Of a stretch of 33,264 bases of DNA, positions 7,273 through 32,250 are shown in pieces. The notes below the pieces were generated by a model. The model did no database searches, was not told the DNA's origin, and was given only the letters and a program-made list of their open reading frames with translations. The stretch lies in contig CANJNZ010000053.1 in assembly GCA_947476045.1 (NCBI GenBank), positions 1 to 33,264 of the forward strand, given 5' to 3'. Source of the stretch: Chthoniobacteraceae bacterium (GTDB lineage: Bacteria > Verrucomicrobiota > Verrucomicrobiia > Chthoniobacterales > Chthoniobacteraceae). Within the stretch, counting starts at the first letter, position 1. Every line of letters begins with the position of its first letter. Made by a program: the position numbers and the translations under genes.

Positions 7273-8199
7273 ATGTCTGTTTCCGTGGAGCCCATCGAAA
7301 AGGGCGGCTCTGGCCGCAAGTTCTGGCGCGTCAATGTCGCCGGACGTTCGCTTATTCTCGTGAGTTACAGCGAGGAGCGTCCTGAAAATCGTCATTACGT
7401 GGAGATCGGGCAATTCCTCGCCGCCGTCGGCGTTCGTGTGCCGCGCGTTTATTTTCATGATGAAAAAGAGGGAATCATTTTGATGGAGGACGCTGGTGGA
7501 AATGATCTGTGGTCGCATCGCAAAGATTCGTGGCCCGAGCGGCGCGCGCTTTATCAGCGGACGCTGGATCAGGCGCTGGTGCTGCACACGAAGGCGCACA
7601 CGGCGGAGGGGCGTCCGCATTTGCAGCAGGAATTTGACGCGGCGCTGTATGGCTGGGAACAGGCGTATTTTATCGAGCACTGTTTGCAGCGGCACTTCGG
7701 GCTCTCGGAAAGCGAAGTCGCAGAGCACGTGGATCGCACGCGGCTCGCGGAGATCGCGGCACATCTTGCGGCGCAGCCCCGTTGTCTCGTGCATCGTGAT
7801 TTCCAAAGCCAGAACGTGATCGTGCGCGATGGCGAGGTGTGCCTGATTGATTTCCAAGGGCTGCGTCCGGGTCTTGCGCAATACGACCTCGCGTCGCTGC
7901 TGCATGATCCTTACGTGGAACTGACGGCGGCGGAGCGCGGGGAGTTGCTGGCGCATTATCTCAGCGGGCTGCTCGGCGCTGGCCGGCACGAAGAGGCGCA
8001 CTGGATGGCGCTGTATGATTTGTGCGCGATGCAACGACTGATGCAGGCGCTCGGTGCCTACGGCAAACTTGGCCGCACCGATGGGCGCGCGGATTTTCTC
8101 GCGCATATTCCTGCAGCGCTGCCGCGACTCATCGAAGTGCTGGAACGGGTGGCGGGGCTGGAGAAATTGCGGACGCTGCTCGTGCGTCTAGCGGCCTAG
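7273..8199 (+). CDS. aminoglycoside-phosphotransferase-fold sugar kinase, AmgK-like
   Basis: The 308-residue product has the small-molecule kinase fold. It shows a Gly/Ser-rich nucleotide loop near the start (KGGSGRKFWRV, residues 10-20), the catalytic HRDFQSQNVIV (174-184, with Asp176 and Asn181) and the metal-binding IDFQG (192-196, Asp193), followed by YDLASLLHDPYVEL. That last segment, together with IDFQ, is the pattern of AmgK, a kinase that phosphorylates N-acetylmuramate and N-acetylglucosamine at the anomeric carbon in peptidoglycan recycling. I infer this role. A nucleotidyltransferase partner (MurU), often next to amgK, is not in the window. The gene follows xth by 50 bases, and its last 12 bases overlap the 3' end of the convergent PDZ-protein gene. 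Choline or aminoglycoside kinase activity is less likely but not excluded. Confidence 0.72.
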   Translation: MSVSVEPIEKGGSGRKFWRVNVAGRSLILVSYSEERPENRHYVEIGQFLAAVGVRVPRVYFHDEKEGIILMEDAGGNDLWSHRKDSWPERRALYQRTLDQALVLHTKAHTAEGRPHLQQEFDAALYGWEQAYFIEHCLQRHFGLSESEVAEHVDRTRLAEIAAHLAAQPRCLVHRDFQSQNVIVRDGEVCLIDFQGLRPGLAQYDLASLLHDPYVELTAAERGELLAHYLSGLLGAGRHEEAHWMALYDLCAMQRLMQALGAYGKLGRTDGRADFLAHIPAALPRLIEVLERVAGLEKLRTLLVRLAA

Positions 8200-9249
8200 T
8201 TCGAGGAGGCCATTGGAGCCGAGGAATGGTTGCGTCTGCCTTTCGATCTCGGGGAGCTCGTCATTCGGCGGATCGATGGGGGTGATGTTCAAGTCGTGGA
8301 TGTGTCCAGCGCGGGAGATGCGAACTTTCACAAGCTCGCTGGCTGTGAGGTAGAAGACGGCGTTCAGCACGTCCTCGGGGTTGGTGATTTTCCACGCGCC
8401 CATTTGCAGTAGCACGTCGCCAACTCGCAGCCCTCCTTTATGGCCGGGGCCGTCGGTGACGAGATTGCGGATGCGCGCTGTGCTTTCGTGCTCGGGTGCA
8501 TCGGTGGTGCGAACGCCCGCGCCGAGCCAGCCGCTGCGGACGCGACCGTGATTGCGGTAGTCGTGGAGAATTTTGTCAGCAGCCTCGATGGGCAGCGCGA
8601 AGAGACCGCTTCCACCTTCGAGCGTGCTGATGAGGACGCCAACAGTTTCGCCTTTGAAATTTACAACAGGCGAGCCGCCCTGACCTTTTTGCACAGGTGC
8701 GCTGGCGCGGATGTGACGCGTGGCGAAGTAGCGGTTTTGGAAGCCAATATCGAAACCAGCGACGATGCCGAAGCTGGGTGAAAGTGGAAGTTCCCGCGGA
8801 TACCCGAGCGTGACGACAGGAGCGGCGAGCGCGAGCGCGGCGGAGCTGCCGGATTTCAAAAATGGGAGCGGCTTGTCTGCCTCGACTTTCAGCACTGCGA
8901 GCCCGCTGCGTGCGTCTGCGACGAGGCGTGTTGCGGGAAATTTCTCATCGCCGATGCTGACGACGATGTCCTCGGTGGTGCCGCCGATGGTGTAGCTGGT
9001 ATAGAGCGTGCCGTCGGCATCCACGAGAAAGCCGGTGCCGCTGAGCCGTCCATGCTCGTCGTCGGCCTCGATGCGGCAGACGGCTCCACGAGACTGGTCG
9101 AAAACACTGCGCACTTCGCGTGTGATCGCATCGGCGAGCGATTCTGTTTTCGCCTCTTCGGCGAAAGTGGGCGCCGCGATGCAGACGAACGCGACTGCAA
9201 TGCTAGAAGCGAATCGGCGCAGGCTCATAGCTCGCGGGCTGTGCATCAA
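8188..9249 (-). CDS. HtrA/DegS-like PDZ protein with all catalytic residues replaced (pseudoprotease)
   Basis: The product is exported: a signal peptide spans residues 8-30 (MSLRRFASSIAVAFVCIAAPTFA), and Met8 (at 9228) may be the true start. A trypsin-like HtrA domain (about 50-215) is followed by a PDZ domain (about 240-320, WLGAGVR, then GGLRVGDVLLQMGAWKI). Aligned by eye to HtrA, GTGFLVDADGTLYTSYTI matches the 'GSGFIVDxDGxILTNNHVV' motif with Thr87 in place of the catalytic His. RSGLAVLKV matches 'RTDLAVLKI' with Gly116 for the Asp, and GQGGSPVVN matches 'GNSGGPLVN' with Gly191 for the Ser. The fold motifs remain but the triad is gone, so I infer a non-enzymatic binding role. It is the last gene of a sigma/anti-sigma operon and overlaps the gene before it, so it probably works with them at the envelope. 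Confidence 0.85.
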   Translation of the reverse strand: MMHSPRAMSLRRFASSIAVAFVCIAAPTFAEEAKTESLADAITREVRSVFDQSRGAVCRIEADDEHGRLSGTGFLVDADGTLYTSYTIGGTTEDIVVSIGDEKFPATRLVADARSGLAVLKVEADKPLPFLKSGSSAALALAAPVVTLGYPRELPLSPSFGIVAGFDIGFQNRYFATRHIRASAPVQKGQGGSPVVNFKGETVGVLISTLEGGSGLFALPIEAADKILHDYRNHGRVRSGWLGAGVRTTDAPEHESTARIRNLVTDGPGHKGGLRVGDVLLQMGAWKITNPEDVLNAVFYLTASELVKVRISRAGHIHDLNITPIDPPNDELPEIERQTQPFLGSNGLLELGR

Positions 9250-9709
9250 TCACGAAGCGTGTGGGCATCCCGGGCTGCGCGTTGTTTTGCGCAGGGCGCT
9301 TGGCTCTACGGATGGCGAGCGATGGGTTGCCGGGCTGGAGTGTGAAGAATCGCTCCGTTTCAGCAGAGACGTTGGCGATATTTTCCTGCGGCAACGATGG
9401 AATCGTCTGAGCGAATTGCTGCTGCAGCGCTGGCTGGCGAGTGGGCAGTGCGATTTGGATCGCGCCGATGCCGATGAGGAGAATCGCCGCCATGGTGCCT
9501 GCGTAATTCCAATCGAGCCGCATCGAGCCGAAGAATGTGCGCAGGCGTTCGAGAGAAATTTTCCACGCTGGCTGGTGCAACAACTCCTCGCGTTGGCGAC
9601 GGTGGATGTTTTTCAACAAGTCATCGAAGTAGCCCGGCGGCGGCTGCTCGTGGCGCTTGAGGCGGAGCAGTGCTTGGAGTTGCTGTTCGGTGAGTTGTTT
9701 ATCTTCCAT
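9203..9709 (-). CDS. single-pass membrane protein, probable anti-sigma factor
   Basis: The 168-residue product has a hydrophilic N-terminal part (about 1-65, LTEQQLQALLRLKRHE and PPPGYFDDLLKNIHRRQREELL), one membrane helix (about 69-89, YAGTMAAILLIGIGAIQIALP) and an outer C-terminal part rich in Gln, Pro and Ala. No zinc anti-sigma motif (HxxxCxxC) is present. The role is inferred from position: it starts three bases after the ECF sigma-factor gene and overlaps the following PDZ-protein gene by up to 47 bases. Cytoplasmic N-terminus, single helix and periplasmic tail is the topology of RseA-type anti-sigma factors. I cannot show binding to the sigma factor from sequence, and a membrane-anchoring partner of another type is possible. 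Confidence 0.65.
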   Translation of the reverse strand: MEDKQLTEQQLQALLRLKRHEQPPPGYFDDLLKNIHRRQREELLHQPAWKISLERLRTFFGSMRLDWNYAGTMAAILLIGIGAIQIALPTRQPALQQQFAQTIPSLPQENIANVSAETERFFTLQPGNPSLAIRRAKRPAQNNAQPGMPTRFVIDAQPASYEPAPIRF

Positions 9710-9712
9710 ATG

Positions 9713-10417
9713 CTAAGCGGCTGAAATTGGCGCGAACTCGGAGAGCCACGCTTGAAGTTGTTTGTGGGCGTAGAAAAGGCGCGAGCGCACGGTGCCTTCG
9801 CTGGTGCCGAGAATTTTTGCGATGTCGGCGTGCGCCATTCCTTGAATGTCGAACATGGTCACCACGGCGCGGTGGTCGGGGGAAAGTTTCATCATCGCCT
9901 CGTTGATCTTCTTTTGCAGTTCGCCGAGGTCGGTATCGCGCACGGGCGTGCTGGCGGCGGTCAGCTCGGTGAATTCTTTGTCGTTGGCGATGCCGTTGTC
10001 CACGTCATCGAGGCTGATGGTCCGGCGGCGACCCCGCTTTTTCAGGAAGTTGAGCGTCGTGTTCGCCGCGATGGAATGTGTCCACGTATAGAACTGAGAT
10101 TTTCCACGGAAGCCGCCTATGTTGCGATACGCCTTGCCCCACACATCTTGCAGGATGTCGTTCGTGTCCTCGTGGTTTGAGGTCATGTGATAGACGAGCG
10201 CGTAAAGTCGGGGGCTGTATTTGACGATGAGCGAATCAAACGCCGCTACGTCGCCGGTTTGAGCACGGGCGACCAGCTCTTCATCCTCACGTCGGCTTTG
10301 TTCCTGTTCCATGGCGCGCGCGTCCTTCCTAGCGGCGAGAGCGCTGGTGGGCAAAGCCGATTCGGCTGGAACGAAAGATGGCATCAGGGTGGTGAAACTG
10401 AGCGTTGAAGTGCTCAT
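9713..10417 (-). CDS. RNA polymerase sigma factor, ECF type
   Basis: The product directs RNA polymerase to a specific promoter set. Counting from the ATG at 10417 (234 residues), sigma region 2 lies at about 60-127 (AFDSLIVKYSPRLYALVYHM, then EDTNDILQDVWGKAYRNIGGFRG and FYTWTHSIAANTTLNFLKKRGRRR) and region 4 at about 177-226 (LSPDHRAVVTMFDIQGMAHADIAKIL, then EGTVRSRLFYAHKQL). No region 3 is present, which is typical of ECF factors of the RpoE type. Alternative starts exist at 10489 and 10312; the latter removes a Ser/Thr-rich leader that looks unstructured and may be non-native. It heads a three-gene operon with a probable membrane anti-sigma factor and a PDZ pseudoprotease, as in envelope-stress circuits. 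Autoregulation is likely by analogy, but no promoter motif was identified. Confidence 0.9.
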   Translation of the reverse strand: MSTSTLSFTTLMPSFVPAESALPTSALAARKDARAMEQEQSRREDEELVARAQTGDVAAFDSLIVKYSPRLYALVYHMTSNHEDTNDILQDVWGKAYRNIGGFRGKSQFYTWTHSIAANTTLNFLKKRGRRRTISLDDVDNGIANDKEFTELTAASTPVRDTDLGELQKKINEAMMKLSPDHRAVVTMFDIQGMAHADIAKILGTSEGTVRSRLFYAHKQLQAWLSEFAPISAA

Positions 10418-10894: not shown

Positions 10895-12841
10895 ATGGCT
10901 AAAATCCTCGGAATTGACCTCGGCACCACGAACTCCTGTATGTCCGTCATGGATGGGCAGGAGCCCAACGTCCTCGAAAACTCGGAGGGCGCGCGCACCA
11001 CGCCGTCCGTCGTCGCTTTCAGCAAAACTGGCGAACGTCTCGTCGGTCAGGCGGCGAAGCGTCAGGCGGTCACGAACGCGACGAACACCATTTTTTCCGT
11101 GAAGCGTTTTATGGGGCGCAAGTTCGATGAAGTGCAGGACGAATTGAAGCGCGTGCCTTACAAAGTCGTGAAAGCGGCGAATGGCGACGCGCACATCCAA
11201 GTGCAGGTCGGCGGAGAGACGAAAACATTTTCACCGCCGGAAATTTCCGCGATGATTCTCGCAAAACTCAAATCCGACGCGGAAGCGAAGCTCGGCGAAA
11301 CCATCACGCAGGCGGTCGTCACGGTGCCCGCTTATTTCAACGACTCGCAGCGTCAGGCCACGAAGGACGCCGGGAAAATCGCGGGCCTCGAAGTGCTCCG
11401 CATCATCAACGAACCCACGGCGGCATCGCTCGCTTACGGCCTCGATAAAAAGCGCGACGAGAAAATCGCAGTGTATGACCTCGGCGGCGGAACGTTCGAT
11501 ATTTCCGTGCTGGAAATCGGCGACGGCGTCTTTGAAGTGAAAGCCACAAACGGCGACACGCACCTCGGCGGCGACGACTGGGACAACACGCTCATGGATT
11601 GGATTCTTGCCGAGTTCAAAGCAGACTCCGGCCTCGATCTCACCAAGCAGCCCGACGCCATCCAGCGCATTAAAGAGGAAGCCGAGAAAGCGAAAATCGC
11701 CCTCAGCTCCGCGCAGGAATACGAAATCAATTTGCCCTTCATCACTGCCGACCAGACCGGGCCGAAGCACATCCAGAAAAAGCTCACCCGCTCGAAACTC
11801 GAACAGCTCACCGATTCGCTCTTCCAGCGCACGCTCGCACCGACGCGCGCTTGCATGAAAGACGCCGGTCTTTCCGAGAAGGACATCAACGAACTCGTCC
11901 TCGTCGGCGGCATGACTCGGATGCCGAAAGTCATCGAGGTCGCGCGCAGCATCATCGGCAAAGAGCCGCACAAAGGCGTGAACCCCGATGAAGTCGTCGC
12001 CATCGGCGCAGCCATTCAGGGCGGCGTGCTCAAGGGCGACGTGAAAGACGTGCTCCTGCTCGACGTGGCCCCGCTCACGCTCGCTATCGAGACCGCAGGC
12101 GGAGTCGCCACGCCGATGATTACGCGCAACACGACCATCCCATCGCGCAAGTCGCAGATTTTCTCGACCTATTCGGACAGCCAGCCCGGCGTCGAAATCG
12201 TCGTCCTGCAAGGCGAGCGCCCGATGTCGAAGGACAACAAAAAACTCGGCACCTTCCACCTCGACGGCATCCCGCCGGCCCCGCGCGGCACGCCGCAAAT
12301 CGAAGTCACGTTCGACATTGATGCGAACGGAATCCTGCACGTCTCCGCGAAAGATCTCGGCACCGGCAAGGAACAGAAAATTTCCATCACCGGCAGCAGC
12401 GGCCTCTCGAAAGAAGAAGTCGAGAAGATGCAGCGCGAAGCCGAGGCACATGCCGAGGAAGACAAAAAGGCGAAGGAATCCGTCGAGATTCGCAACAACG
12501 CCGACAACCTCGCCTACCAGTGCGAAAAACAACTCAAGGAGCTGGGCGATAAAATCCCCGGCAACGTGAAGAGCGAGATCGAAGCGAAGATCGCCACGGT
12601 GAAAGAAGCCCTCAAAGGCAACGACGTGGAGGCCATCAAAACCGCCTACACCGATCTGCAAAACAAATTCCAGGCAGCGAGCGAAGAGCTCTATAAAAAC
12701 GCCGCCGCCGGAGCTGGCCCACAGACCACACCCGAAGATTTTGCGAAGCAAAACGCAGGTGGTGGCGAAGGTGCCGCGAAGAAAGACGGCGACGTCGTGG
12801 ACGCAGAGTTCGAAGTTGTGGACGGCGACAAGAAGAAGTAA
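10895..12841 (+). CDS. dnaK: chaperone DnaK (Hsp70)
   Basis: DnaK is the ATP-dependent Hsp70 chaperone of the cytoplasm. The 648-residue product is full length. The nucleotide-binding domain shows [18 protein letters not shown] at the start, [21 protein letters not shown], the phosphate motif [19 protein letters not shown] and LVGGMTRMP. The linker reads [15 protein letters not shown]; the usual form is DVxPLSLGIET, so the Leu-Gly pair is Leu-Ala here. The substrate domain follows, then the helical lid (from about 505), and the C-terminus ends in the common [11 protein letters not shown] signature. The leader just upstream (AAAACCAACCAATACTTTCT) lacks a Shine-Dalgarno. Neither grpE nor dnaJ is adjacent; instead a small secreted protein and groESL follow, an uncommon clustering of the two chaperone systems. 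Confidence 0.98.
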
Positions 12842-12847
12842 CGCGCA

Positions 12848-13201
12848 ATGAAACGCCGTCTCACACTTGCCATTGGCTGTCTTGCTGCCGCGATGCCTTC
12901 CGTCTCTTCGGCTGCTGCTCCGGCGCGCACGGTGAATGTCGCTCCCGCACAAACTTCCCGCTTTAGCCTGCTCGACGCCACACAGGCGGCGCACGGCGAG
13001 CTGGAAAAGCGCGGGCTTTCACCCGACCACACCATCGCCAGCGTCGTCCTGCTCAAGGGCGTGCAGGCGGGCACGGGGAGCTACGATGTGCGTATCGAAC
13101 CACCGGCAACGCTCGAAGACGGGCAGCGGCTGCGCGGCTTCTGCGTCGGGCTGGATGGCAGCATCGTTCCCGTGAACGGATTCCGAGCGAAGACCGACTG
13201 A
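12848..13201 (+). CDS. small secreted protein of unknown function
   Basis: I do not recognise this 117-residue protein. It has a signal peptide ([22 protein letters not shown], cleavage after about residue 22-24). The mature part of some 94 residues holds an amphipathic segment ([29 protein letters not shown]) and a beta-like end (YDVRIEPP, then [18 protein letters not shown]) with one Cys. It starts six bases after the dnaK stop and about 100 before groES, so it is probably transcribed with dnaK. An exported protein inside a cytoplasmic chaperone cluster is odd; it may be a heat-inducible envelope protein. That is inference from position only. Confidence 0.7.
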
Positions 13202-13307
13202 ATTTTCTAATTTTCGCCGTGTTCAGCGGTCGGTGGCTCTGCCTCCGGCGGATGAAGTCGGCGATTTTAACCAACAACAAACCAACAACCAAAAAACCAA
13301 ATACAAC

Positions 13308-13604
13308 ATGGCTAAAGTGAACGTTCGTCCCCTCGGGGATCGCGTCCTCGTGCAACACGTCGAGGAAGCGGAAGTCAAAAAAGGCGGAATCATCATTCCC
13401 GATACCGCGAAGGAAAAACCACAGGAGGGCAAAATCATCGCTCTCGGAACCGGCAAGCGCGACGAGGACGGGAAAATCATCCCGTTCGTCGTGAAGGTCG
13501 GCGACAAAGTGCTCGTCAGCAAATACGGCGGCACGGAAATCAAAATTGATGGGGAGAGCTACCTCATCATGCGCGAGGACGACATCCTCGGCATCATCGG
13601 CTAA
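13308..13604 (+). CDS. groES: co-chaperonin GroES
   Basis: GroES caps the GroEL ring during protein folding. The 98-residue product begins [16 protein letters not shown] and has the mobile loop ([21 protein letters not shown]), the roof region and the closing [13 protein letters not shown], all standard. The frame is open upstream to 13233, but homologues start at the Met chosen here. The 45 bases before the start are almost free of G (runs of ACCAAC and ACAACC), with no Shine-Dalgarno. groEL follows 35 bases downstream as in most bacteria. Confidence 0.97.
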
Positions 13605-13630
13605 ACCAAACTCAACCTACTAAAAACTAA

Positions 13631-15274
<1,644 letters not shown>

Positions 15275-16116: not shown

Positions 16117-17127
16117 ATGAAGAATACTCTGCCAATGTTCGCTGCGCTGTTTGCGTGTGCTTTTTGCCCGGTGCTCCGCGCGCAGCAACCGGCAACGACG
16201 GATTTCCAAGTGTATCGCGGGACGCAGGTGCCGCCGGAGGTTGAGCGGATTTATGAGAAGGGGCTGAAGTATCTCGTGGCGGCGCAGAATGCCGACGGAA
16301 CTTTCCCCGGCCAGTATGGGACGGAGCCGGGCGTGGTGGGGTTTGCGCTGATGACGATGCTGGCGCATGGCGATGATCCGAATCACGGGCCGTATGCGAA
16401 GGCGGTAAAGAAGTGCGTGGAGAACCTGCTGAAAAATCAGGCGGAGAACGGCTACATCGGCACTTCGATGTATAATCACGGTTTTGCGACGCTGGCGCTG
16501 GCGGAGGCGTATGGGACGGTGCAGGATGATCGCATCGGACCGGCGCTGAAAAAGGCGGTGGAGCTGACGCTGAGTTCGCAGGACAAAAACAAATTTCACG
16601 GCTGGCGCTATTCGCCCGAGGCGCAGGATGCGGATTCGACGGTGAGCGGGGCGTGTTTTGTTTCGCTCATCGCAGCGCGCAATGCGGGTGTGAAAGTGCC
16701 GGAGAAAAACATCGAGGATGCGCTGAAGTTTTTCACCGACTGTCAAAATGTGGGCGGCGGTGACATCGGCTACATGCCGCGAAGTGGCGCGCATGGCGGG
16801 GCGACGACGGCGATTGGCGTGGCGGCGTTTGCGTATGCGCGGAAGAAGGATCATACGACTTTCACCAAGGCGCTCAAGGCGATGAAAGGCAGCGATGAAA
16901 ACGGGGGCGGGTATCCTTTCTACTACGAGTATTACGCGGCGCAGGCTTACTTTCAGAGCGACTTCAAGGCGTGGCAGTCTTGGAACGACAAACAGGTGAA
17001 ACGGCTCACCGAAATGCAAAACGAAGACGGTAGCTGGGACGCCGGCCTCGGCCCCGGAACGAGCACTGCACTCGGGCTGCTCTCCATCGCGCTGAACTAC
17101 CGCTACCTTCCAATCTATGAACGCTAA
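16117..17127 (+). CDS. secreted alpha/alpha-toroid protein (prenyltransferase/squalene-cyclase-like repeats)
   Basis: The 336-residue product starts with a signal peptide (MKNTLPMFAALFACAFCPVLRAQ); an upstream in-frame ATG at 16060 would bury it, so the later start is chosen. The mature protein is made of repeats of the toroid superfamily: GLKYLVAAQNADGTFPGQYG, CVENLLKNQAENGYIG, AVELTLSSQDKNKFHGWRY and RLTEMQNEDGSWDAGLGPG, each a helix followed by a 'Q-x-x-D/E-G-x-F/W' turn. No catalytic DXDD of squalene cyclases is seen, so an enzyme activity is not implied. Its last 11 bases overlap the start of the 992-residue protein gene, so the two are translationally coupled. Proteins of this type are frequent in Planctomycetes and Verrucomicrobia, with unknown function. 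Confidence 0.82.
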   Translation: MKNTLPMFAALFACAFCPVLRAQQPATTDFQVYRGTQVPPEVERIYEKGLKYLVAAQNADGTFPGQYGTEPGVVGFALMTMLAHGDDPNHGPYAKAVKKCVENLLKNQAENGYIGTSMYNHGFATLALAEAYGTVQDDRIGPALKKAVELTLSSQDKNKFHGWRYSPEAQDADSTVSGACFVSLIAARNAGVKVPEKNIEDALKFFTDCQNVGGGDIGYMPRSGAHGGATTAIGVAAFAYARKKDHTTFTKALKAMKGSDENGGGYPFYYEYYAAQAYFQSDFKAWQSWNDKQVKRLTEMQNEDGSWDAGLGPGTSTALGLLSIALNYRYLPIYER

Positions 17128-20095
17128 ACTCACGGCGCGCGGTGTTCGATTTGTGGTGGCTGTCTGGCTATTCCTGTTGTCGCCAGCATGGGCGGAGAAA
17201 ATTATCGAGGTGCAGGAGCAAGTTGAACTGGACGGTCTGGATGAGTTCATACTCGGCGGCGATGTAATCGTGAACGGCAACGTGGTGGCGCCGAATCCAA
17301 ACAAGCCCCCAGATAAGGCGCAGGAGAAAGATGGAGCAGGCGAGCAAGTGCTCGAATTGACGGACGGCTCGCAGCTTCATGGTCAGCTCGTTTCCCTCGG
17401 AAAAAGCGAGGTCGTGTGGAAGCGTGCGGATGCCGAGCAACCGCTCATTTTTTCGCCGCAGGAAGTGCGCAGACTCATCCTCGGAAAGCCGCTGCCGCTC
17501 AAGGATGCGAAGGCAAACGCTACGCTCAAACTCAGCAGCAACGACTGGATCACGGGGGAACTGAGCGCGCTGCATGAAGGGAAATTCCAGATCGAAATCG
17601 GCGGCGCAACGAAGCTCGAAGTCGAGCGCGGCAATGTCGAGTGGCTCGCACTTTCTCCCGCAGCGCCGCCCGATGCCTACGATGGGCCGGTCGGGCCGAT
17701 GGGTATGTCCGGCTGGGATACTGGCGGCGAAACAGGCGGCGCGTGGGATTACGCGGATGGCGCGTTCATCGCCAAAACGCCGTCGCTGATTTCGCGTTCG
17801 TTCGATGCGTTGTCGGACAAGGTGGACATCCAGTTCACGTCGGGCGACGGGGGCAGCAACAATCGCGGGATGGCCATGTGGCTCCAGCCGGGGAAAAATA
17901 TTCGGGGCTACAGCAAAGGATCGGTCTATCTGCGGTTTCAGGCGAACAGCGTGAACGCGAACGTTTACACCGGCGAGCAAATGAAAAATTTCAGCGCGGA
18001 TATTCCGCCCGAAAAAGAAGAGAAGAAAATTTCGAAGTATCGTCTGCTCTTCGACCGCAAGGACGGGCGGCTGATCGTTTTCATGAACGGGAAACAAATC
18101 GCCGACTGGGATTTCCCGGAGGCCAAAGAAGCGCCCGCTGGTGGCTTGATCAACTGGCAGCCGAATTACTGGAACTCCGAATCGCCGTGGACACTCTCGA
18201 ACATCCGCGTGCAGCCTTGGGACGGAAATCCTGTGCCCGATGCGAAGGACGATGAGGCCGGAAAGGATTTGATCAAAGCAGCGGCGACGGAGCGCAAAGC
18301 GGGAAAGCTGGAAGGCATCACGCCGGACGCGGTGAAATTCAGCGGTGCAGATGTTTCGCGAAAGGAGGCGATTTTTCTCCGGCTCACATCGCCTGCCAAT
18401 GCGGAGCCGCCGCCTGCGACTGTTGCGCGCGTGTGGCTCAGCACGCGCGGCGAATTCGATGTGACGGGGATCGGTTTCCGCGACGGGCAGCTCAAGGTGC
18501 GCACTTCGTTTGCGGGCGATCTCGCTCTGCCGCTGTCGGCGATTCGCTCGATTGAATTTCCGCACAAAGCCACCGCCGCCGAGAAGGCCGTGGCTGACGG
18601 AGGTGACACGCTCATTTTCAAAAACGGCGATCAACTGCGCGGGACGCTCAGCGCCGCGAGTAACGATCAACCACTGCAATGGAAGCCAGTGAAAGGCGAC
18701 AAGCTCATCGCTTTTGCGCCGGGCAGGCTCGCGGGCGTGCTGCTTGCGTCCCGCAAAGATGCGCCCGCATTTACCGGCGGTGCGGCGGTGCGTTTTCAAA
18801 ATGGCGACTGGCTGCCCGGAAAATTACTCGCGCTAGATGGACAAAATTTACGGCTCGGCACCGCGCTTTCTGGAGAGCTGAACATCGCGCGCAGCGGCAT
18901 CCGCACGGTTTATTTTGGAGCGGAGGGGGAGGCGCCCGTTTGGGATGGTGCGAGCCAGCGCGAAGTGTGGATGGGCGGCACGACGGTGCCCGGCTACTAC
19001 GGCTCTTCGCGGGCAAAAAAGGACGAGAAGAAACCAAACCCGTGGCGCTATCTCGATGGAGCTTTCACTTTGATCAGCGGCAGCAGTCGCAATGGAAACG
19101 GGCAGAATCTCGGACGCAAATTCGACACGCTGCCGGAGAAGGTGGACATCAGCTTCGAGCTTTCCACGACGAAGGGCCCGGCGGCTTTTGCGATTCAGCT
19201 TTTCGTCGAAGAGAACAGGCAGAGCGGCATCATGGTGCAGGGGAGTTGGGACAGCGTGTATCTTTACGACATGTCGCCGCGAAAGCAGGGCGGCGCGTTT
19301 TTTAATCAGCCACAGCAAATCGAGTTTGGACAAAAACTCGGCGGCGAGGCCAATCGCCGGCATTTTCGTTTTCTCGCAGATCGAAAAACGGGACGGCTAT
19401 GGATGTTTGTGAACGGTCAGCTTGTGGGTCAGCTCAAACGGCGCAGTTCGAGCGAGGATAATCCAAAACCGGGGAAGGGCGTGGCGATTATTCCACAGCC
19501 GATGGGCGCGCGCGTGACGGTGTCAAATTTGTGGGTCGCGCCATGGAGTGGTGCGCTGCCCGTGCAGCCCAAAAAGGATGACAAGGGAGAGAAAGAGGAA
19601 GGGGTGGAAAAGAAAAAGGAGGAGAAGAAACCCGAGCCCCGGACGAGCGACGCGCTCGCGCTCGTGAATGGCGACGAGACGCAGGGTGAAATCGTGAGCG
19701 CCACTGCGGACACACTTACAATCAAGTGCGATGCAGGCGAACTCGACATCCCCATCGCCCGCACATTGATCGCGGACTTCGCCAGTCCGCCCGCAGCAGC
19801 GAAGCCCGGCATCCGGTTGCGCTTCGCAGGCAAAGGCGCACTCACGGTGCAGTCGTTCAAAATCGAAAACGGGAAAGTTGTTTGCCAGAGCGCGAATGCG
19901 GGCGAACTCAGCTTCCCGGCCTCCGCGCTTTCGGAGATTGTCTTTCAGCCAAATCAAGTGCGCCCATTCGAAGGAGCCGGTGGAAAAGACGGCAATGCTG
20001 GACAAGCTGGCGGCGTATGGGGTGGCGGTGGTTTTCTGCAAATTGATGAGGAGGGGGGATTTTTCCAAGGAGGTCGGGTCATCATTCGAGAATAG
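17117..20095 (+). CDS. 992-residue secreted protein with seven small beta modules and two LamG-like domains
   Basis: No function is known to me. A signal peptide (to about residue 26) precedes a repeated design. Small beta modules of about 45 residues follow the pattern 'L-x-N/D-G-D-x-L-x-G-x-L ... I/L-x-x-I-x-F' at about 78-123, 136-180, 436-482, 497-545, 555-601, 846-890 and 898-945. Two larger jelly-roll domains of concanavalin/LamG type lie at about 200-370 and 605-812; both contain DR-K-x-GRL-x-x-F-NG and end in a 'L-SN-x-x-V-x-PW' strand. The order is therefore 2 beta, LamG, 3 beta, LamG, 2 beta. A charged Lys/Glu linker (about 818-842) precedes the last pair, and the tail is Gly-rich. 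The gene overlaps the toroid-protein gene, suggesting the products act together at the cell surface. Confidence 0.85.
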   Translation: MNAKLTARGVRFVVAVWLFLLSPAWAEKIIEVQEQVELDGLDEFILGGDVIVNGNVVAPNPNKPPDKAQEKDGAGEQVLELTDGSQLHGQLVSLGKSEVVWKRADAEQPLIFSPQEVRRLILGKPLPLKDAKANATLKLSSNDWITGELSALHEGKFQIEIGGATKLEVERGNVEWLALSPAAPPDAYDGPVGPMGMSGWDTGGETGGAWDYADGAFIAKTPSLISRSFDALSDKVDIQFTSGDGGSNNRGMAMWLQPGKNIRGYSKGSVYLRFQANSVNANVYTGEQMKNFSADIPPEKEEKKISKYRLLFDRKDGRLIVFMNGKQIADWDFPEAKEAPAGGLINWQPNYWNSESPWTLSNIRVQPWDGNPVPDAKDDEAGKDLIKAAATERKAGKLEGITPDAVKFSGADVSRKEAIFLRLTSPANAEPPPATVARVWLSTRGEFDVTGIGFRDGQLKVRTSFAGDLALPLSAIRSIEFPHKATAAEKAVADGGDTLIFKNGDQLRGTLSAASNDQPLQWKPVKGDKLIAFAPGRLAGVLLASRKDAPAFTGGAAVRFQNGDWLPGKLLALDGQNLRLGTALSGELNIARSGIRTVYFGAEGEAPVWDGASQREVWMGGTTVPGYYGSSRAKKDEKKPNPWRYLDGAFTLISGSSRNGNGQNLGRKFDTLPEKVDISFELSTTKGPAAFAIQLFVEENRQSGIMVQGSWDSVYLYDMSPRKQGGAFFNQPQQIEFGQKLGGEANRRHFRFLADRKTGRLWMFVNGQLVGQLKRRSSSEDNPKPGKGVAIIPQPMGARVTVSNLWVAPWSGALPVQPKKDDKGEKEEGVEKKKEEKKPEPRTSDALALVNGDETQGEIVSATADTLTIKCDAGELDIPIARTLIADFASPPAAAKPGIRLRFAGKGALTVQSFKIENGKVVCQSANAGELSFPASALSEIVFQPNQVRPFEGAGGKDGNAGQAGGVWGGGGFLQIDEEGGFFQGGRVIIRE

Positions 20096-28482: not shown

Positions 28483-29842
28483 AATTCCTACTACCGAAAA
28501 TCTCGCGCCCGTCTGGGCCGAAATTGCTTCTGCGCTCCGCGCAGAGGTTTCCGCTGATATTTTCGACCGCTGGTTCAAGGAAACCGAACTCGTCGAACTT
28601 AGCTCTGAACATCTCACGCTTCGTGTCCCGAATGAGATTTACCGCTATTGGATCGAGGATAATTACTTCGACCCGCTGCGTGCCGCTGCGTTGTTCACAT
28701 TAAAGAGCGCCCGCGAAATCCGCTTTGTAAGCGCCGGTCTTGCCAAGGTGCCTCACCATGAGCCCGAGCGCGTGAAACCCCGCGTGCAGCTCACCGAGGA
28801 GGAGACCGACGAGAAGGCCGTGGCGAACGGACTGAATCCGAAAAACAGCTTTGATAATTTCGTCGTCGGCTCGAACAACGAATTCGCCGCTGCCGCCTGT
28901 CGCGCAGTTTCGGAGAATCCCGGCAAAGTCTATAACCCGCTATTTTTCTACGGCGGAGTAGGTCTCGGCAAAACGCACCTCATGCACGCCATCGGCCATC
29001 ACTTGATGTCCACGCGGAAGATGAAGGTCTGCTACGTCACGAGCGAAAAATTCACTAACGAGTTCATTGATGCGATTCAGAACGGAACACTCGTGAAATT
29101 CCGCAAGCGCTACCGTCAAGTGGACGTGCTGCTCATTGACGACATTCACTTTTTCGCCGGCAAGGAGCGCTCGCAGGAAGAGTTCTTCCATACGTTCAAC
29201 ACGCTGTTCGACGGGCACAAACAGATCGTCCTTAGCTCCGACCGACCGCCCGCTGAAATCGGCAACCTCGAACCGCGACTCGTTTCGCGCTTTGAATGGG
29301 GTCTCACCGCCGAGTTGCAAGCGCCCGATGTCGAAACGCGCATGGCTATCTTACAAAAGAAAGCGGCCAGCATCGGCGCGATCATCGAGCCTGAGATTAT
29401 CCAGTTTGTAGCCGAGCGCATCCGGACAAACATCCGCCGCCTCGAAGGCGCACTCATGCGAGTCGCGTCATTCCGTTCGCTCAGCGGCACCAAGCCTTCG
29501 CAAGAACGCATCGAGATTTTGCTCAAAGATCTTCTGCAGGAAGAAGCGCGCCGCACCGTCAGCGTGGAGCAAATCCAAAAACGCGTGGCAGAACACTTCG
29601 ACGTTCGTTTCGCCGACATGACCAGCAAACGACGCCCAAACAGCATCGCCTTCCCGCGCCAGATCGCCATGTTCCTCACGCGTGAGCTGACAAAAATGTC
29701 GCTTTGCGAAATCGGCGACGCCTTCGGTGGCCGCGACCACGGCACCGTCCTCCACGCACACCGTCTGGTGAAGGACCGCATGGGCGACGACGACAAAGTG
29801 AAGCAGGTCGTCAAATTCCTGAACGATCAACTCCAGCGTTAA
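28475..29842 (+). CDS. dnaA: chromosomal replication initiator protein DnaA
   Basis: DnaA binds DnaA boxes and opens the origin. The 455-residue product has domain I (about 1-85, VWAEIASALRAEVSADIFDRWF), a short linker, the AAA+ domain (FDNFVVGSNNEFAAAACRAV, Walker A GGVGLGKTH at 160-168, Walker B LLIDDIHFF at 219-227, sensor VLSSDRPP, EPRLVSRFEWGL with the arginine finger) and domain IV with the DNA-binding signature GDAFGGRDHGTVLHAHRLV. Family members usually read 'RDHSTV', so Gly replaces Ser here. The start is GTG; no in-frame ATG occurs before the AAA+ domain. No Shine-Dalgarno is present. The GTG lies inside a perfect DnaA box. dnaN does not follow; a large lipoprotein gene does. Confidence 0.97.
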   Translation: MDKIPTTENLAPVWAEIASALRAEVSADIFDRWFKETELVELSSEHLTLRVPNEIYRYWIEDNYFDPLRAAALFTLKSAREIRFVSAGLAKVPHHEPERVKPRVQLTEEETDEKAVANGLNPKNSFDNFVVGSNNEFAAAACRAVSENPGKVYNPLFFYGGVGLGKTHLMHAIGHHLMSTRKMKVCYVTSEKFTNEFIDAIQNGTLVKFRKRYRQVDVLLIDDIHFFAGKERSQEEFFHTFNTLFDGHKQIVLSSDRPPAEIGNLEPRLVSRFEWGLTAELQAPDVETRMAILQKKAASIGAIIEPEIIQFVAERIRTNIRRLEGALMRVASFRSLSGTKPSQERIEILLKDLLQEEARRTVSVEQIQKRVAEHFDVRFADMTSKRRPNSIAFPRQIAMFLTRELTKMSLCEIGDAFGGRDHGTVLHAHRLVKDRMGDDDKVKQVVKFLNDQLQR

Positions 29843-29985
29843 AAACGCGGACCGCCCGCGACTGGAATCAACTGGGTCCAAGGGGGCAGTCCTGCCTCAG
29901 CGGTTTTCTTCGTGCATTGGCACTGTTGCAGGCATACAAGCCGCACCTCTCGCGCTTGGGCGCGACAAAACTCATCTTATTTGCC

Positions 29986-32250
29986 ATGAAACGCCGTTCA
30001 CTTCACTCGCTCTTTGCGCCAGTCACCGCGCTCTTTGTCGCCGCCGCTTTTACCTCTTGCGAAAAGGCACCGGAAAAAACAACCGCGCCGCAACCTGAGC
30101 CAGCCAAGCCAGCCGCCGAAAAAGCTGCCGAGGCTCCAAAGCCAGCTCCTGCAAATCCCGCGCCGGCCCAGCCTGCTGCGGATGCGGCGAAACCGGCTGC
30201 GCAAGTTGCGGACGTCGCGAAGGTCGCCGCGACATACGGCTTCGCCTCTCGGCTTCCCAAGGATGTCGAAGGATTTTCCGCCATCTATCACCTGCACGAC
30301 ATCTGGGTTTCATTCAGCAACAGCAAATGGGCCACGACGCTGCTCGACTTGGAGCCAGTGAAGAAGGATCCGCAAATCCAAAATTCCATCAAACAGTGGA
30401 ACTCGCCCGAAGCGCAGAAAGTGAAAGATCTATTGGAGGCAATCGTCGGCAACGAATTCCTCGTCGTCGAGCCAGCCGGATACGCCAGTAAAATTGAGCC
30501 GCTCATGGAAGCATACGGGAAATTTTTAGAATCCTATTTGCAACAGGCATTTCTCGCCGGGCTGAGCGGCAAGCAAATGGGGCCGAAGGAAATTCAAACC
30601 CTCATGCAGAACGCGGCACCTGAACTCGTTCCGGCTTTTGCAAAATGCGATGTGCCACCCATGCTACTCATCTCGAAAGCCGGAAAGGCAAAGGCCGATA
30701 TTGATGGTGCTTTCAAGCAACTGACCGGAATGGTCGGCACCAAACTTCCGCCCGCTTTCGAACTGGGCAGCTTCAAAGTCGCGGATAAATACGAATTCCA
30801 AACGCTGAGCGTCGTAGCCAAAAAACTCGTCGCCCAATTTCAGGAGGTGCAATTTGAACTTCAACTTAAGGAACTCATCGGCGACGAAGCGAAGGCCAAA
30901 GAGCTTGTTGCGCAAATTTCCGCCAAGCACGCCGAACTCGCGTGGGGCTGGGTGGACGATTATTTCGTCGTCTCCCTTGGCGTGGATCACAGTCACGTAA
31001 AATTTGCCGCGACAGAAGCAGACAGCGCTCTCGCGATAGCCGATGTGGCCAAGCGTGCAGTGCAATTTGCCGACAAAAAGCCGATGGGTCTCGCGTATGT
31101 GAGCAAAGCGCTCTTCGAAAAATTTTCTCCTCGGATGGAGTTCGCCACCAAATTCAACGGCATCTCCAACGAACTCCGTGGCATTTTGAAGCCCGAGCAC
31201 ATTACCGCGATGCAGGCCGATGTTAAAAAACTCGAGGGCAAGGCGCAGTCGCTTTTCACGCGGCAGTTCGATCCGATGGTAGCGGTTTCCTACGTTGAGT
31301 CGGGAATTCACGCCGATGCCTTCGGCGGGTTGCGTAACAGCAGCTACGACTCATCGAAGCCGCTCGGTTTTGCCAGCCTCGCCACACCGGCATCTTTCCT
31401 GTTTTTCGACAGTCGCGCCAACGGCCCGCACAGCAAGGCCATCGTGGATTTCGTTGAAGAGGGAGCAATCACGCTCTGGGGTTGGTATGAAAAATACGGA
31501 CGCACCATGATTCCTGAAGAGGAGCGCAAGAGTGCCGCGATGGCCGAAGGCATGGTGAAACCGATGGTGGAGCAACTTTGGAAATCTGGTCGCCTTCTCG
31601 GCAAGGCACTCGGCGACGAGTCTGCATTCATCCTGGACCTCAATGGCAATGTGCCGAAACTTCCCGAGATTCCGCCCTTCCTTGCTGACGGAAAAATCCC
31701 GCGCATCGCGTATGTCGCCGAATTGAAAGACCGCGCCGCACTCTCTGAGTCGTGGAAAGGTTTTTCGGGCCTCATCAAACAAATCGGCGCATTTGTCCCG
31801 CCCACTGCGCTTCCGCAAGGCGTGCCTGAGGCGGTGATGAAAAAGGACGGCGATGTGGAGTTGCACTTCATCCCGCTGCCAGTGCCCACCGACGATGTGT
31901 TGCCGCACATCGCTATCAGCAAGGACCGCTGGATCATCAGCACATCACCAAGCTTTAGCAAAGAACTCGCATCCAAAGCCGTCGCGACCACCGGCCCTGC
32001 GCTCGGCAGCAATGATCAGGTGAATTTCAGCGCCGTCTGGGATCTCGCCGAAGTCTGGCTCGGAGTTTTGGACAAAAATACCGAGCAAATGCTCGGCCCC
32101 GGCGAAGCGAAGGAATTCAAAGAGAACCGTTCATTGATCAGCACCGCGCTCAAACTCGCCCGCTGCCTGAAAGGCATGGAAAGCCAAATCTCCGAGGAAT
32201 CCGGCCAGGCCCGCATGAGCGTCCACCTCAAAGTCGAAGACTTGAAGTAA
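29986..32250 (+). CDS. large lipoprotein of unknown function
   Basis: I do not recognise the family. The 754-residue product begins with a lipoprotein signal (MKRRSLHSLFAPVTALFVAAAFTSC, lipobox FTSC with Cys25). A linker rich in Ala, Pro, Lys and Glu (about 26-75) would reach from the membrane. The remainder is an ordered periplasmic or surface domain of about 680 residues with a mixed helix/strand pattern (SAIYHLHDIWVSFSNSKWA early; a late DRWIISTSPSFSKELASKA stretch). The frame stays open upstream into dnaA, but the lipoprotein signal fixes the start at 29986. Its stop lies two bases from that of the convergent ABC ATPase gene. It follows dnaA by 143 bases; no functional link is visible. 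Confidence 0.8.
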   Translation: MKRRSLHSLFAPVTALFVAAAFTSCEKAPEKTTAPQPEPAKPAAEKAAEAPKPAPANPAPAQPAADAAKPAAQVADVAKVAATYGFASRLPKDVEGFSAIYHLHDIWVSFSNSKWATTLLDLEPVKKDPQIQNSIKQWNSPEAQKVKDLLEAIVGNEFLVVEPAGYASKIEPLMEAYGKFLESYLQQAFLAGLSGKQMGPKEIQTLMQNAAPELVPAFAKCDVPPMLLISKAGKAKADIDGAFKQLTGMVGTKLPPAFELGSFKVADKYEFQTLSVVAKKLVAQFQEVQFELQLKELIGDEAKAKELVAQISAKHAELAWGWVDDYFVVSLGVDHSHVKFAATEADSALAIADVAKRAVQFADKKPMGLAYVSKALFEKFSPRMEFATKFNGISNELRGILKPEHITAMQADVKKLEGKAQSLFTRQFDPMVAVSYVESGIHADAFGGLRNSSYDSSKPLGFASLATPASFLFFDSRANGPHSKAIVDFVEEGAITLWGWYEKYGRTMIPEEERKSAAMAEGMVKPMVEQLWKSGRLLGKALGDESAFILDLNGNVPKLPEIPPFLADGKIPRIAYVAELKDRAALSESWKGFSGLIKQIGAFVPPTALPQGVPEAVMKKDGDVELHFIPLPVPTDDVLPHIAISKDRWIISTSPSFSKELASKAVATTGPALGSNDQVNFSAVWDLAEVWLGVLDKNTEQMLGPGEAKEFKENRSLISTALKLARCLKGMESQISEESGQARMSVHLKVEDLK

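Follow-up and report, generated by a model that had tools for sequence, protein, structure and literature searches.

A stretch of 33,264 nucleotides from a Chthoniobacteraceae bacterium (assembly GCA_947476045.1, contig CANJNZ010000053.1, positions 1 to 33,264; this whole stretch is the window) carries an operon of the RpoE-like kind whose HtrA member lacks the residues for cutting. Three open reading frames (ORFs), tightly packed on the minus strand at window positions 8188-10417, encode an extracytoplasmic function (ECF) sigma factor, a membrane protein and an HtrA-PDZ protein, here called pseudo-HtrA. We consider it reasonably probable, judging from sequence and predicted structure, that this operon is a switch for envelope stress, similar to that of RpoE, whose sensor does not cut. 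The stress sensors DegS and AlgW work by cutting, whereas here an HtrA protein without cutting residues sits in a widespread operon. The pairing of a dead HtrA with an anti-sigma-like protein that has its own PDZ-ligand-like tail would separate sensing from proteolysis, and is open to a simple peptide-binding test. If this reading is true, envelope stress is read through peptide binding, not through cutting.

The sigma factor gene occupies positions 10417..9713 (minus strand; 234 amino acids from the ATG at 10417), with an internal ATG at 10312 as an alternative start whose context matches some relatives. Its product matches Pfam Sigma70_r2 (3.4e-14) and Sigma70_r4_2 (1.3e-13) and has regions 2 and 4 only, as in ECF sigma factors. 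It also matches the NCBIfam RpoE model TIGR02939 at 138.1 bits, under the cut-off of 236.15. The membrane protein, our anti-sigma candidate, follows at 9709..9203 (minus strand, 168 amino acids), and its gene overlaps by 26 bases that of pseudo-HtrA at 9228..8188 (minus strand, 346 amino acids). Pseudo-HtrA is predicted to be exported and, by Pfam, alignments and a fold model, to combine a trypsin-like fold with one PDZ domain. A first-pass annotation of this DNA had described three coupled genes for a sigma factor, a single-pass membrane protein lacking a zinc motif, and a protein of the HtrA-PDZ type, and the ORFs and Pfam matches agree with that description.

Pseudo-HtrA is confidently predicted to have the HtrA fold. 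The protein matches Pfam Trypsin_2 at 1.7e-16, and the codons for its PDZ region, about residues 235-316, lie at 8281..8526 (minus strand; Pfam PDZ_2 at 236-315). At least one PDZ model scored above its cut-off in all 13 relatives scanned. A single-chain AlphaFold model has a mean predicted local distance difference test score (pLDDT) of 87.4 and a predicted template modelling score (pTM) of 0.82. Residues 28-325 of this model resemble DegP, DegQ, DegS and AlgW, most closely DegP and DegQ (structural Z of 32.5 over 287 residues for DegP, 28.3 for DegS), with the trypsin-like domain preceding the PDZ domain. An N-terminal hydrophobic window above 1.6 is present in 29 of 44 relatives, a measure that does not tell a signal peptide from a DegS-type membrane anchor.

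The catalytic triad, by comparison, is gone. Alignment with DegP-like, MucD and HTRA2 chains, and with an intact HtrA from the same genome, puts T80, G109 and G184 (counted from the ATG at 9228) where HtrA proteases have His, Asp and Ser. These are the same residues as the Thr87, Gly116 and Gly191 of the first-pass annotation, which counted from a TTG at 9249 and had assigned them correctly. Because it lacks the triad, pseudo-HtrA is not counted among the HtrA proteases. No substitute triad is visible, since the invariant columns of two alignments hold neither His nor Ser. Two candidate replacements were tried and rejected. At the position of Ser186, next to Gly184, most named relatives have Ala (GAP in place of GSP), and His172 is near-invariant within the order but not in the wider alignment.

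We followed this loss through several samples. The order set comprised 57 genomes, including the window's own; the pseudo-HtrA query found HtrA-type matches in all 57 and the membrane-protein query found matches in 50. Ortholog-level pseudo-HtrA matches defined 44 order-level loci, with the cut-off placed at a gap in the scores (44th match 1.5e-36, next 9.6e-26) and the 13 genomes without such a match excluded. A second set drew on 60 regions from the same class and used the 44 loci there that had a pseudo-HtrA match; 10 of those 44 loci belong to the same order. The named set, which overlaps the order set, kept 80 of 315 loci found, and includes Chthoniobacterales and Spartobacteria metagenome-assembled genomes as well as Chthoniobacter flavus Ellin428. 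An extra alignment took in 11 further loci and realigned one (G136). Family and genus codes (f and g numbers) below are labels internal to this analysis.

The loss recurs throughout. In the order set, His is kept in 0/44, Asp is replaced by Gly in 44/44 and Ser is kept in 4/44. The second set keeps His in 0/44 (one being a gap), Asp in 0/44 and Ser in three (G072, G074, G059). Among the named loci the counts are 0/80 for His, 80/80 for Asp replaced by Gly, and 1/80 for a retained Ser, and none of the 12 sequences in the extra alignment has an intact triad. As a control, the non-operon HtrA loci that were inspected, namely the best-scoring matches, keep all three residues in 58 of 58 cases (29 + 29). 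The gene order recurs with the loss: the membrane protein adjoins pseudo-HtrA in 44/44 order-level loci, with the sigma gene detected in 43, and the sigma gene is present in 77 of the 80 named loci. Of 60 further regions, picked for having a membrane-protein homologue, 44 have all three genes.

A decaying pseudogene or an alignment artefact can hardly account for this pattern. Such an explanation has in its favour the lost triad and nothing else, while the same loss is found in every aligned operon member, the fold is confidently predicted, and four pairs of dead HtrA genes give ratios of nonsynonymous to synonymous substitution rates (dN/dS) of 0.09-0.29, which indicates purifying selection. 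Four sigma comparisons of the same kind were left unused, three of them resting on 30-36 codons. The triad loss together with dN/dS rules out a single decayed gene. Judged from these alignments, the loss is ancient and shared by the operon members aligned, which contradicts the single decayed gene that the first-pass annotation had named as a refutation of its proposal. The part of that proposal which describes a sigma/anti-sigma-like operon with an HtrA member unable to cut is supported.

Within family f15, decay of the protease domain has gone much further: the Trypsin_2 cut-off was reached by 0/5 proteins scanned, and a PDZ model scored above its cut-off in 5/5. In five loci of its genus g33 (L318-L321 and L254) the operon is kept and the protease domain of the PDZ protein is barely recognisable; the membrane-protein tails there are VLIEM in four and LIEF in one.

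The membrane protein is likely to be an anti-sigma factor. It has no Pfam match up to E 0.1, zf-HC2 included, and its match to the NCBIfam 'antisigma' model NF052375 is weak (19 bits against a cut-off of 100), so that it falls outside that curated family. The likelihood of the role comes from its homologues and its predicted layout. In families f18 and f14 its homologues have a zf-HC2 domain at the N-terminus, which scores above the cut-off in four of the five tested and at 21.5 against 22.2 in the fifth. The protein itself is predicted to form helices at residues 8-19, 27-45 and 48-62 and a transmembrane helix at 67-87, followed by a disordered stretch and a conserved tail. This is the layout of RseA (helical N-terminus, one transmembrane segment, C-terminal tail, adjoining sigma gene), as read from a low-confidence model with the topology assumed. 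A hydrophobic window is present in 43/44 cases. With the membrane-protein alignment as query, 189 of the 236 genomes in the class showed homologues, and a wider alignment picked them up in 80 of 240 genomes of a phylum sample.

The last 17 residues of this protein, encoded at 9206..9256 (minus strand) and ending IRF-COOH, align with a strongly conserved order-wide consensus, RYVIDaRPVSYEpxFxF-COOH, that resembles the end of an outer-membrane protein (OMP). The terminal Phe is found in 44/44 order-level loci and 80/80 named loci, with a second Phe at position -2 in 64 of the named ones; over the 99 loci with a dead HtrA, the terminal residue is Phe in 89, Tyr in 6 and Met in 4. The final 23 coding bases of the tail are shared with the pseudo-HtrA gene. 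Overlap does not explain the tail, because 10 loci in which the genes do not overlap (with start codons chosen by script) keep the Phe, and we rejected conservation as a by-product of overlap. The PDZ domains of DegS and AlgW bind YxF and WVF ends (PMC8545111). The tail resembles a PDZ ligand of the DegS/AlgW type, and its binding by pseudo-HtrA is putative. In the same genome, BamA has YKF as its last residues and a second Omp85 frame has DAF, so OMPs can share this ending.

The tail also bears on whether pseudo-HtrA touches the anti-sigma candidate at all. It could instead be a product of the stress operon that works freely in the periplasm, as a chaperone or as a sponge for OMPs, a role consistent with a fold closest to DegP and DegQ and with the dnaK, groES and groEL genes that adjoin the operon. 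That explanation leaves the PDZ-ligand-like tail of the neighbouring gene unexplained, and we regard it as very improbable. Direct contact between the PDZ domain and the tail is, on present evidence, likely.

The switch that we propose would work as follows. The PDZ groove of pseudo-HtrA would bind the anti-sigma tail and so shield the membrane protein, and the former substrate cleft may hold the conserved RYVIDARPVSY stretch. Unassembled OMPs, whose C-termini can have the same aromatic ending, would displace the tail by competition. The freed anti-sigma protein would then fall to other proteases, among them probably this genome's M50 enzyme, which is of the RseP type by family and size, and the sigma factor would be released once the anti-sigma protein was destroyed. 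In Escherichia coli, RseA must first be shortened by DegS, at Val148, before RseP acts on it (PMC8098476), and a shield that exposes the tail upon stress is therefore reasonable. The direction of this shield-and-compete step is tentative. A broader possibility, about which we are somewhat more hesitant, is that the dead HtrA acts across much of Verrucomicrobiota as a ligand-gated clamp, for which the anti-sigma C-terminus (internal) and OMP C-termini (external) compete in a first step without proteolysis. Of the 80 named loci, 65 encode a YugP-like zinc metallopeptidase, Zn_peptidase_2 (PF04298; L139:2027-2734 is one example), in most cases a short way upstream of the sigma gene. It was rejected as the general releasing protease because it occurs in only 1 of 60 other regions and was not found in the window's genome.

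Over 127 loci, those with a dead HtrA have an aromatic end in 95 cases and lack it in 4, and those without a dead HtrA have one in 11 and lack it in 17. Genus g5 has no visible pseudo-HtrA at the sigma locus, and the last residue of its membrane protein is K, R, P or Q in 7/7 loci; tail and dead HtrA are likewise both missing in f35, f43, f58 and others. In G180 (L260) the dead HtrA lies on a different contig from the sigma operon and the Phe tail is kept; this genome was scored as having a dead HtrA. Where the locus has no dead HtrA, the best-scoring HtrA matches of the genome were inspected, so that a dead copy with a weak score could still lie in trans. The sigma tree behind these comparisons has 127 rows and leaves out G111, G139 and G197 (contig ends) and G044 (no sigma seen); G035 had no membrane-protein match, and a second membrane-protein-like copy in G030 was uncounted. 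These sequence comparisons suggest that the tail tends, with exceptions, to occur with a dead HtrA. The strict rule that an aromatic tail occurs only with a dead HtrA was rejected, being broken by 11 of the 28 loci without one, while 4 of the 99 with one end in Met. The stronger argument, on these alignments, is that the tail is conserved.

Several results weigh against a non-cutting sensor that reads this tail. The PDZ_2 match of pseudo-HtrA itself (2.8e-5, 24.8 bits) falls just under the Pfam cut-off of 27, and the membrane protein is poorly modelled (pTM 0.30). Aromatic ends persist in those 11 loci without a dead HtrA, including f24, f63 and f68 and also G087, G157 and G186, where the inspected HtrA loci are all intact, and four loci with a degenerate PDZ protein have tails ending IEM. 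A tree-aware test offered 5 independent contrasts (starred branches) or 6, and its sign test was not significant (median p 0.5); over 200 pairings the tail follows the dead HtrA in 1-3 contrasts (mean 2.3) and does the opposite in 0, rarely 1. Finally, as regards control of the operon by its own sigma factor, the 117 upstream stretches contained no strict RpoE-type promoter of the GGAACTT form (0 of 117, against 0.65 expected in shuffles), a comparison of low power. Two looser forms were at or below chance in upstream stretches (16 against 18.7 expected, and 36 against 46.05). The form GGAA[AC]C was seen 25 times against 7.75 in shuffles, an excess set aside because related sequences inflate the count.

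Since f24, f63 and f68 keep aromatic ends with only intact inspected HtrAs, the tail can have another reader. The Phe tail might mainly signal to an RseP-type site-2 protease or to an active HtrA elsewhere, with the dead HtrA as a cap or accessory. The aromatic ends where the inspected HtrAs are intact, the M50 protein in the genome and the action of RseP after DegS all suit this explanation; the joint absence of tail and dead HtrA in g5, f35, f43, f58 and others does not, and neither does the maintenance of the HtrA-PDZ protein by selection. We consider it unlikely. In three f24 loci (L308, L310, L311) the anti-sigma homologue is long, at about 320-340 amino acids, and ends LKF or IKF, and an adjoining HtrA was not found. 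The tail in G194 ends VEY.

A switch with a non-cutting sensor shares much with known systems. Like RpoE-RseA-RseB of E. coli with DegS and RseP, it would combine an ECF sigma factor, a single-pass anti-sigma protein with a periplasmic tail, a protein of HtrA-PDZ fold and an M50 protease in the genome, with OMP C-termini as a plausible signal. Unlike in that system, the HtrA protein is dead and encoded inside the operon, there is no match to a curated anti-sigma family, and it is the anti-sigma protein itself that has the PDZ-ligand-like end. Pseudomonas also has an HtrA gene in a sigma operon, that of MucD, which is an active protease. In its AlgU-MucA-MucB-MucD system, the AlgW PDZ domain binds Phe-ended tails such as the WVF of MucE; AlgW, however, is an active protease and MucE a separate protein (PMC8545111). 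The sigma, anti-sigma and htrA genes are also adjacent in Mycobacterium (sigE / rseA-htrA-tatB), but the HtrA there is reported to be an essential serine protease and sigE is not co-transcribed with rseA; mycobacterial RseA is controlled by redox, PknB and ClpC1P2 (PMC10027907).

The known dead HtrA is MamO, a magnetosome pseudoprotease with an HtrA-type trypsin fold, a degenerate active site and non-catalytic roles, which differs in its metal binding, its activation of MamE, its part in magnetosome formation and its lack of a sigma operon (PMC4794232). Pseudo-HtrA scores 27.5 bits against the MamO model, whose cut-off is 800, and does not belong to that family. It could nevertheless act like MamO, as an activator of a living HtrA that cuts the anti-sigma protein. 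MamO, itself a dead relative of HtrA, promotes MamE-dependent proteolysis (PMC4794232), and at least two HtrA-like genes of this genome are intact, but a living HtrA was seen as the third operon gene in no aligned locus; such a role seems decidedly unlikely. Among the matches listed from the openly licensed PMC literature, we found no description of a sigma/anti-sigma system with a dead HtrA.

A chaperone cluster lies beside the stress operon. It spans 10895-15274 on the plus strand, begins with dnaK, divergent from the sigma operon, and includes groES (13233-13604) and groEL (13640-15274). Between dnaK and groES is an ORF of 117 amino acids (12848-13201) without a Pfam match. Two long ORFs elsewhere in the window, at 17117-20095 (plus strand, 992 amino acids) and 29704-32250 (plus strand, 848 amino acids), have no Pfam match at 1e-3.

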